A stretch of DNA of 64,000 nt. It comes from Acidobacteriota bacterium (GTDB taxonomy: Bacteria; Acidobacteriota; Blastocatellia; UBA7656). The position numbers and the translations under genes were made by a program. Positions 2 through 3,243 of this stretch are shown here, piece after piece (within the stretch, counting starts at the first letter, position 1; each line of letters starts with the position of its first letter). Location of the stretch: contig JBBPIG010000008.1 in NCBI GenBank assembly GCA_038040445.1, positions 171,127-235,126 on the forward strand, in the 5' to 3' direction. The notes beneath the pieces are model-generated. The model searched no databases, was not told the origin of the DNA, and was given only the letters and a program-made list of their open reading frames with translations.

Positions 2-952
2 CCGCTTGCAGGCGGACGTGTCATTTGTCTGGATCGCGGCAGCGGATCTTTGCTGTGGACGAGCGAACCCGGCGGAATCGTCGGAGTGCCGGTTGCCGTT
101 GGCGAGAATTCCGTCTACATCGCAACGCGCAAGGTCGCCGACGATGGATCAGAAGCGGGCGGATCGCTGCGCGCGGTGGACAAAGCTACCGGTCTGACGG
201 TGTGGGTGAAAGACTATCCGCGGCCTTTCGCCTCGCCTCTCGAGCCGGGCGGCAATCGGATTTATGCCGGGAGTTCGGATGGATCGTTCTACGCGCTCGC
301 CTCAACCAGCGGGGATGTGATCTGGAAGGTTGAGACTCAAGACATTGTTCACGGCCGGGCCCGTATCACCGATCGCGCGATCTATTTCGGAAGCGACGAC
401 GGCGCGCTGCGCGCGGTAGACCCGGTCAACGGGCAGATGATTTGGAAGTATCAAGCGGTTGGCAAAATCATCGGTCAGCCCGCGGTCGATGCGCGCGACA
501 TCTACTTTGGTTCGGGGGACGGCTACATCACTTCGGCCGATTGTCTGACAGGCAAGCTCAAATGGCGTTCGCGAACCGGGGCTGCCGTCGAAGCGTCGCC
601 GGTGCTGGCCGGCGGCCGCGTGCTTGTAGCGTCGTTCGACAACTTCGTTTACGCGTTGTCACGTTCAAACGGGGACCGAATCTGGAAGCGGCGTCTCGAA
701 AACCGCATCGCTTCTGCTCCGATAGTAGAAGGAGACGCGAGCCTGGTTGCTCCGCTCCGAGGCGAATACGTTGCCGTGTTCCTGAATTCCGACGGCCGCC
801 GTGTAAACCTCTACCAACTCGAAAAGGACTTCGAGATCGTTGCCGATCCTGTCTTCTCGGGCGATACGCTGGTGCTCGCGACGGATAAGGGCCTCGTCGT
901 CGCCAGGACCACTCGATCGGCCGACATCCCGCCGAGTGCCGTCAAGAAATAA
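2..952 (+). CDS. PQQ-type beta-propeller protein, 3' part
   Basis: The reading frame is already open at base 2 and stops with TAA at 950-952, so the start lies left of the window. At least six blades of a PQQ-like (quinoprotein/BamB-like) propeller are visible as alternating strands such as IYFGSDDGALRAVDPVNG and IYFGSGDGYITSADCLTG, each followed by a K/I-W-(K/R) strand. Such propellers occur in outer-membrane assembly factors, dehydrogenases and exported scaffold proteins. Without the N-terminus (signal peptide, fused kinase or other domains) the function cannot be set. The tail ends in a short lysine-rich linker. The family is sure; the role is unknown. Confidence 0.85.
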   Translation, partial: PLAGGRVICLDRGSGSLLWTSEPGGIVGVPVAVGENSVYIATRKVADDGSEAGGSLRAVDKATGLTVWVKDYPRPFASPLEPGGNRIYAGSSDGSFYALASTSGDVIWKVETQDIVHGRARITDRAIYFGSDDGALRAVDPVNGQMIWKYQAVGKIIGQPAVDARDIYFGSGDGYITSADCLTGKLKWRSRTGAAVEASPVLAGGRVLVASFDNFVYALSRSNGDRIWKRRLENRIASAPIVEGDASLVAPLRGEYVAVFLNSDGRRVNLYQLEKDFEIVADPVFSGDTLVLATDKGLVVARTTRSADIPPSAVKK

Positions 953-2637: not shown

Positions 2638-3243
2638 TCACCCCTTCACGTCGAAGGCAAACTGCACCATGTGAGAGGGATTAGTTTTATCGTTTGATTT
2701 TATGGTTATCGACTTGACGTGCTCACCCGGCGCTTTGCCCGTCTCGACTTTTACCTTGATTTTGCCGGCCTGACCAGGCCGGAGGACCTTCGGATAGTCC
2801 ACGGTGGTGCATCCTCAGCTTGGCACGACCGCTTCAATATTGAGATCGGCCCGCCCTCCGTTTCTGATGGCAATCGCCCGAATGAGCGTCTTGTCCTGGG
2901 GGTGCTTGCCGAAGTCTATTTTCTTTTCCGGCGCGATCAGTTTCGGCGCGCGCGCGCTGCTCGCGGTGTTCGCGCTTCGGTCCGCCGGAGGCTTCTCAGC
3001 CGGCGTAACTGCATTGCCGGCAGCCTTCGGTTCCGGCGGCGGTATCGATTGAACCGTTGGCGGGGTGCTCGGCGAAGCGTTGTTTTGAGCGACGCGAAGT
3101 TGTTCGGCAGCGTTGCTGTTAGCTTGCTGCTGAGGAGCGTTGGTATTCGAGGAGCCGGAGGGTCCCGTTGAGCTCGAGCATCCCGAGAGTAACGCTATCA
3201 GCACAAGCAGGGCGGCGTACGGTCTTATGATCGAGGGTTTCAT
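2638..3243 (-). CDS. DUF1573 lipoprotein with in-frame TGA at the motif cysteine (candidate selenoprotein)
   Basis: The gene has 201 codons before its final TGA (2638-2640) and one internal TGA at 2815-2817 (codon 143). The N-terminus is a lipoprotein signal with lipobox LLSGC (Cys22), followed by a low-complexity Ser/Pro/Asn/Gln linker and a DUF1573 domain (about codons 113-201). The domain begins with KIDFGKHPQDKTLIRAIAIR and should contain S-C-G-C-T; here it reads VVPS-(TGA)-GCTTVDYPKV. After the TGA the same frame keeps the family's L-x-PG-x-x-GKIKV and the SITIKSNDKTNP strand. The TGA thus replaces exactly one conserved Cys, with no frame change. Either it encodes selenocysteine (UGC redox motif) or it is a nonsense mutation leaving a 142-residue fragment. 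The gene would be exported and lipid-anchored; the precise function of DUF1573 is unknown. Confidence 0.8.
2765..2782 (-). other. SECIS-like hairpin downstream of the in-frame TGA
   Basis: On the coding strand, CCGGCCT-GGTC-AGGCCGG forms a perfect 7-bp G+C-rich stem with a GGUC loop. The loop starts 39 bases after the in-frame TGA at 2815-2817. The E. coli fdhF SECIS also presents GGUC in its apical loop. The distance here is a little longer than usually described for bacterial SECIS elements, and the sequence also encodes the conserved RPGQAG of DUF1573, so chance is possible. Confidence 0.35.

Follow-up and report, generated by a model that had tools for sequence, protein, structure and literature searches.

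A very probable UGA-encoded selenocysteine in a short DUF1573 lipoprotein of Acidobacteriota, with a covarying two-hairpin RNA element downstream of the codon

An in-frame TGA within the DUF1573 domain of a lipoprotein gene

We asked whether an in-frame TGA codon in a lipoprotein gene of an Acidobacteriota bacterium is read as selenocysteine (Sec), or whether it reflects a recent nonsense mutation, both of which had been considered in the initial annotation of this DNA. The gene lies on the minus strand at positions 2638–3243 of the window, by which we mean the whole stretch of 64 000 nucleotides that was analyzed, and it consists of a 201-codon frame followed by a terminal TGA (2638–2640), with the TGA at codon 143 (2815–2817, minus strand) as the sole interruption. 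That one frame continues on both sides of this codon, as first described, was borne out, as was the fit of both sides to DUF1573. The read-through protein matched Pfam DUF1573 (PF07610) over residues 106–190 (2674–2928, minus strand), across the TGA and with the codon inside the domain, at an E-value of 9.8e-19 and with 67.6 bits compared to a gathering cut-off of 26.1 bits. The sequence around codon 143 reads P-S-(TGA)-G-C-T-T-V-D-Y-P-K-V-L-R-P-G-Q-A-G-K-I-K-V, in agreement with the initial description of S-(TGA)-G-C-T followed by Y-P-K and PG-x-x-GKIKV, so that a Sec residue at position 143 would be the first of an S-U-G-C-T motif having Cys145 (2809–2811, minus strand) as its partner. The gene also encodes an N-terminal lipoprotein signal, LLSGC22, the cysteine of which (3178–3180, minus strand) is the lipid attachment site predicted from the sequence and is invariant in five orthologues.

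Conservation of the TGA codon and selection on the sequence beyond it

Upon searching 147 relatives, we found TGA, rather than TGC or TGT, at the same column in 5/5 syntenic orthologues from four genera, with the orthologues in the genomes G001, G002, G004 and G005, all of the same bacterial family, carrying it at the same codon. These loci were considered orthologous because of their clade support (99/99) and their synteny with a gene for a PLP-dependent class I/II aminotransferase (PF00155; 1387–2622, minus strand, directly downstream in the window), which was adjacent on the same strand in 5/5 orthologous loci with 61–81% identity. A gene for a BamB/PQQ-like beta-propeller protein (window 50–952) is also kept near the orthologues, its position not being fixed.

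The TGA column was furthermore invariant in 19 TGA-type genes. Longer paralogues (about 270–460 aa) that share this TGA column were found in the families f1, f5, f6 and f9 of the class Blastocatellia. TGA-type genes were also seen in further Acidobacteriota, a Terriglobia genome being one of them, as well as in a genome of the Desulfobacteraceae. When the window protein alone was the query against the collection of genome contigs no match was obtained, while an alignment of the TGA-type domains gave 23 named loci. Sec and Cys were interchanged at least four times on the DUF1573 tree, which is the pattern of Sec/Cys homologues. In one genome (G041; L021, G041:C153) a Sec-type and a Cys-type DUF1573 gene are neighbours, and in another (G019; L132, G019:C24) a Cys-type and a Sec-type domain lie within a single open frame; both pairs have the appearance of recent duplications in which Sec and Cys were switched.

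The sequence following the TGA is under purifying selection. Between the window gene and its nearest orthologue, the 38 domain codons preceding the TGA had a pN/pS of 0.162/0.398, and the 40 codons that follow the RNA element described below had one of 0.085/0.611; the degeneration of this copy that had been raised as a possibility was hence not seen. Downstream of the element, pN was 0.085–0.318 compared to a pS of 0.611–0.894 among the orthologue pairs, with pN well below pS after the TGA in 10/10 pairs. Within the 18 codons right after the TGA, pS was unusually low (0.17–0.49), which points to a constraint at the RNA level.

The selenocysteine machinery of the genome

The initial annotation had proposed a search for the genes of Sec synthesis, and all of them were present in the window genome, with tRNASec(UCA) found at 70.6 bits (above the cut-off), SelB at 359 bits over 578/581 positions, SelA at an E-value of 1.8e-143 and SelD at 4.9e-105. 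The selD gene (L162; G000:C21:108415-109344, minus strand) itself has one in-frame TGA, located at the usual SelD position (VSCAG-TGA-AAKLAP) and followed by a hairpin with a GGUGC loop that starts 32 nt downstream, inside the usual range of bacterial SECIS elements (bSECIS). SelD (AG-U-AAK) counts among the selenoproteins of this genome. We conclude from this complete set, including a TGA-bearing selD, that the genome decodes Sec. The gene for FdhA, checked as another selenoprotein of this genome, was without an in-frame stop. Since tRNASec was found in 133/147 related genomes, the co-occurrence of TGA-type genes with Sec machinery carries little weight. G046, a genome that carries a TGA gene and is 89% complete, had no tRNASec and no SelB above the cut-off, possibly because of an assembly gap.

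A two-hairpin element confined to the TGA genes

A gap-free alignment of 18 TGA genes revealed two consecutive hairpins downstream of the TGA. The first, SL1 (2784–2800, minus strand; GGACU...GGUCC), pairs alignment columns 18–22 with 30–34 and was paired in 100% of cells, and the second, SL2 (2766–2781, minus strand; CGGCCU-GGUC-AGGCCG, with the loop GGUC at 2772–2775), pairs columns 37–42 with 47–52 and was paired in 97.8% of cells; standard pairs made up 98.9% of cells for the element as a whole. Compensatory changes were seen at the outer pair of SL1 (C-G, G-C or U-A) and at two pairs of SL2, or three if counting the closing pair found by RNAalifold, which gave the same two hairpins without any prior structure. 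The covariation score was 0.292 compared to 0.073 for shuffled alignments, with 0/500 shuffles scoring as high, a count that is not a probability as the sequences are related but that agrees with the controls using slid registers and Cys homologues. None of the slid registers came near the score, and in 12 Cys homologues, a set including genes linked to the tRNASec-derived RNA described below, the two-hairpin structure was not found, with 40% of cells being paired as in the shuffled alignments.

Codon usage within the element was near fixed among 19 TGA genes, with GAC in 19/19, GTC in 19/19, AAA in 18/19, CCT in 16/19 and GGT in 18/19, encoding D, V, K, P and G, respectively, for which Cys homologues having the same residues use mixed codons. 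It was this codon table together with the covariation that allowed the two hairpins to be recognized. Folded alone, the window RNA was no more stable than its shuffles (z −0.34), and its lowest-energy fold keeps SL2 and rearranges SL1 (−19.3 versus −16.4 kcal/mol), so the case for SL1 is a comparative one. A single hairpin directly after the UGA was tried as a SECIS candidate and rejected, the single-sequence folds being inconsistent. R1, a covariance model built from the element, matched TGA genes of the DUF1573 type in other parts of the class and phylum, and the five further genomes of the phylum that were found with this model all had TGA.

Two further Sec-containing DUF1573-type families

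The window genome encodes a second DUF1573 selenoprotein (L036; G000:C42:21056-21370) of about 360 aa with a G-U-G-C-T motif, scoring 103.4 bits against the NCBIfam model NF041425, named 'OS_HP2 family (seleno)protein', which is above the cut-off of 100 bits. A third, DUF1573-like family with vicinal Sec and Cys (L124–L130; in the window genome G000:C5:49265-49321, minus strand) was matched by R1 and found in 7/7 genomes of the bacterial family, in frames open for about 400–580 codons and with the motif S-U-C, or T-U-C in one case. This U-C paralogue gave 36 bits against the OS_HP2 model. It has the same two-hairpin arrangement, with the distance from UGA to SL2 being one codon longer in 6/7 and the loop starting 42 nt after the UGA in most members. 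DUF1573 selenoproteins have thus expanded within one Blastocatellia family to three Sec-containing paralogues, all of which ordinary annotation cuts at the TGA.

A tRNASec-derived RNA with a GCA anticodon

Four genomes from three genera (G000, G001, G003 and G005) also carry a tRNASec-like RNA with a GCA (Cys) anticodon, located within about 10–120 nt downstream of a Cys-type DUF1573 gene, on its 3′ side (L002 1501–1591, minus strand; L071 1964–2057; L072 2281–2373; L074 2285–2380). None of the 158 further genomes scanned in the class gave a match to it, and in G006 there is an assembly gap where it would follow the same Cys-type gene. The RNA has a 6-bp D-stem with a 4-nt loop, a long variable arm and an anticodon arm that equals that of tRNASec except for U34 being changed to G. 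As its helices covary, we regard it as a maintained structured RNA. It has no encoded CCA, which is present in both tRNASec and the tRNASer of the window, its base 73 varies, and its terminal pairs are imperfect in two genomes. The lack of an encoded CCA and the variable base 73 suggest a possible regulatory role in place of one as a functional tRNA. Insertion of Sec at UGC in the linked Cys-type genes was considered and is rejected for now, these genes being without the recoding element.

Predicted structure and possible function of the Sec-containing domain

An AlphaFold model of the window protein had pLDDT values mostly above 90 for residues 101–200, with Foldseek matches to 2qsv and to PapD-like domains of HYDIN. 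The domain is thereby predicted to be a beta sandwich that most resembles 2qsv and PapD-like/ASH domains, those of HYDIN among them, with U143 and C145 placed between two strands in the model. A literature search for an experimentally tested function of DUF1573 found none. In exported proteins, Sec is usually a redox residue. By analogy with selenoproteins in general, we find it reasonably likely that the U-G-C pair forms a selenenylsulfide and performs redox work in the envelope.

Alternative explanations

A Cys-type gene could easily come to show this TGA through a nonsense mutation or an error in sequencing, as the codon is one base from TGC and TGT and Cys homologues using these codons exist. 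The syntenic conservation of the TGA in four genera excludes the recent mutation, and a chance lesion of either kind has to be squared with the same TGA in the independent assemblies of four further members of the family and in paralogues from several families, with the purifying selection past the codon and with an RNA element confined to TGA genes, which makes this explanation vanishingly improbable. Equally negligible is the reading of UGA as a general sense codon in this organism (code 4 or 25), for which no supporting evidence was found; in the window gene and its paralogues the frame is closed by TGA or TAA past the conserved domain, the homologues have Cys rather than Trp or Gly at this column, and Sec machinery is present. 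Marginally less remote, and still very improbable, is insertion of Cys through an opal suppressor tRNACys resembling selC*, the UCA-anticodon tRNA that some Deltaproteobacteria are known to have. The bacterial family does have the odd tRNASec-derived RNA with a Cys anticodon, but this anticodon, GCA, cannot read UGA, the only UCA tRNA found was an ordinary tRNASec, and SelA and SelD are complete.

With these three explanations set aside, codon 143 almost certainly encodes Sec, as the initial annotation had proposed as a candidate, on the combined evidence of Sec machinery, TGA orthologues, selection and a covarying recoding element. What Sec does in the protein is a separate matter, where the main rival to a redox role is binding of a metal or metalloid at a U-x-C site, or anchoring of the protein. 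An Ig-like fold lacking a known catalytic site, a CxC spacing that a soft metal could fit and the related family with vicinal U-C would be compatible with this, yet the customary redox role of Sec in exported proteins and the lack of metal-related genes noted beside the window gene argue against it, and we consider it rather unlikely.

Proposed mechanism of Sec insertion

In the mechanism that we propose, SelD, SelA and tRNASec(UCA) would give Sec-tRNA, which SelB, through its binding of the GGUC-loop hairpin SL2 downstream of the UGA, would deliver to the ribosome, with SL2 being the putative SECIS hairpin and SL1 acting as a folded spacer that would shorten the effective distance between UGA and SL2. 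Once the protein is mature and in the envelope, Sec143 and Cys145 would probably form a selenenylsulfide/selenol–thiol redox pair within an exposed loop. We hold with very high confidence to the core of this explanation, an exported DUF1573 lipoprotein with UGA143 decoded as Sec, to which the binding of SelB to SL2, the spacer role of SL1 and the redox function are added by inference. More tentatively, and with slightly less than even confidence, we suggest that Acidobacteriota have a distinct, bipartite class of SECIS for DUF1573-type selenoproteins, shared by three paralogous families including that with vicinal Sec-Cys, in which SL1 would position the distant SL2 for SelB so that the folded length, and not the linear one, determines SECIS spacing.

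Comparison with known systems

The initial annotation knew of no described DUF1573 selenoprotein, which proved wrong. OS_HP2 (pfam07610, UxC) was described in the 2008 GOS paper (PMC2398784), and a DUF1573 selenoprotein (pfam07610, motif UGC) is listed in two reviews (PMC9312934, PMC13188914). The window protein shares with OS_HP2 of the Olavius algarvensis symbiont and the GOS metagenome the DUF1573 domain and a Sec residue that is first in U-G-C. It differs in belonging to a subfamily of short lipoproteins that was seen in a single Blastocatellia family only and, together with its acidobacterial relatives, in having the two-hairpin element with a GGUC loop; in the Desulfobacteraceae TGA homologue (L140, 2612) the downstream RNA is without the acidobacterial two-hairpin sequence. 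Having reached 70.5 bits against NF041425, below its cut-off, the window gene is, judged by sequence similarity, a divergent, short lipoprotein subfamily within this known selenoprotein kind. The short subfamily and its presence in Acidobacteriota appear to be new, as does the two-hairpin element, as far as the literature and databases searched show; the little-studied OS_HP2/DUF1573 family is thereby extended to this phylum.

The GCA RNA, in turn, resembles tRNASec variants with sense anticodons, the selC* tRNACys and allo-tRNAs, the last being unusual related tRNAs of Acidobacteria (PMC7609411), in its D-stem, variable arm and anticodon arm, and differs from them in its missing encoded CCA, variable base 73 and, in two genomes, imperfect terminal pairs.

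With regards to recoding, the bSECIS model (PMC13188914) sets 16–37 nt from UGA to the apical loop, and the same review acknowledges a subset of genes outside the model. The SL2 loop starts 39 nt after the UGA in 18/18 aligned sequences, or 38 nt with the closing U-A pair opened. Being strictly conserved, the element violates the spacing rule accepted for bacterial SECIS elements, which allows the way in which SelB gauges its distance from UGA to be tested directly and would explain possible misses by model-based SECIS scans. Like a canonical bSECIS, SL2 is a post-UGA hairpin within the coding sequence, with a 6-bp stem and a small loop of G followed by G (GGUC); unlike it, the loop lies 2 nt beyond the range and an extra conserved hairpin, SL1, is found between the UGA and SL2.
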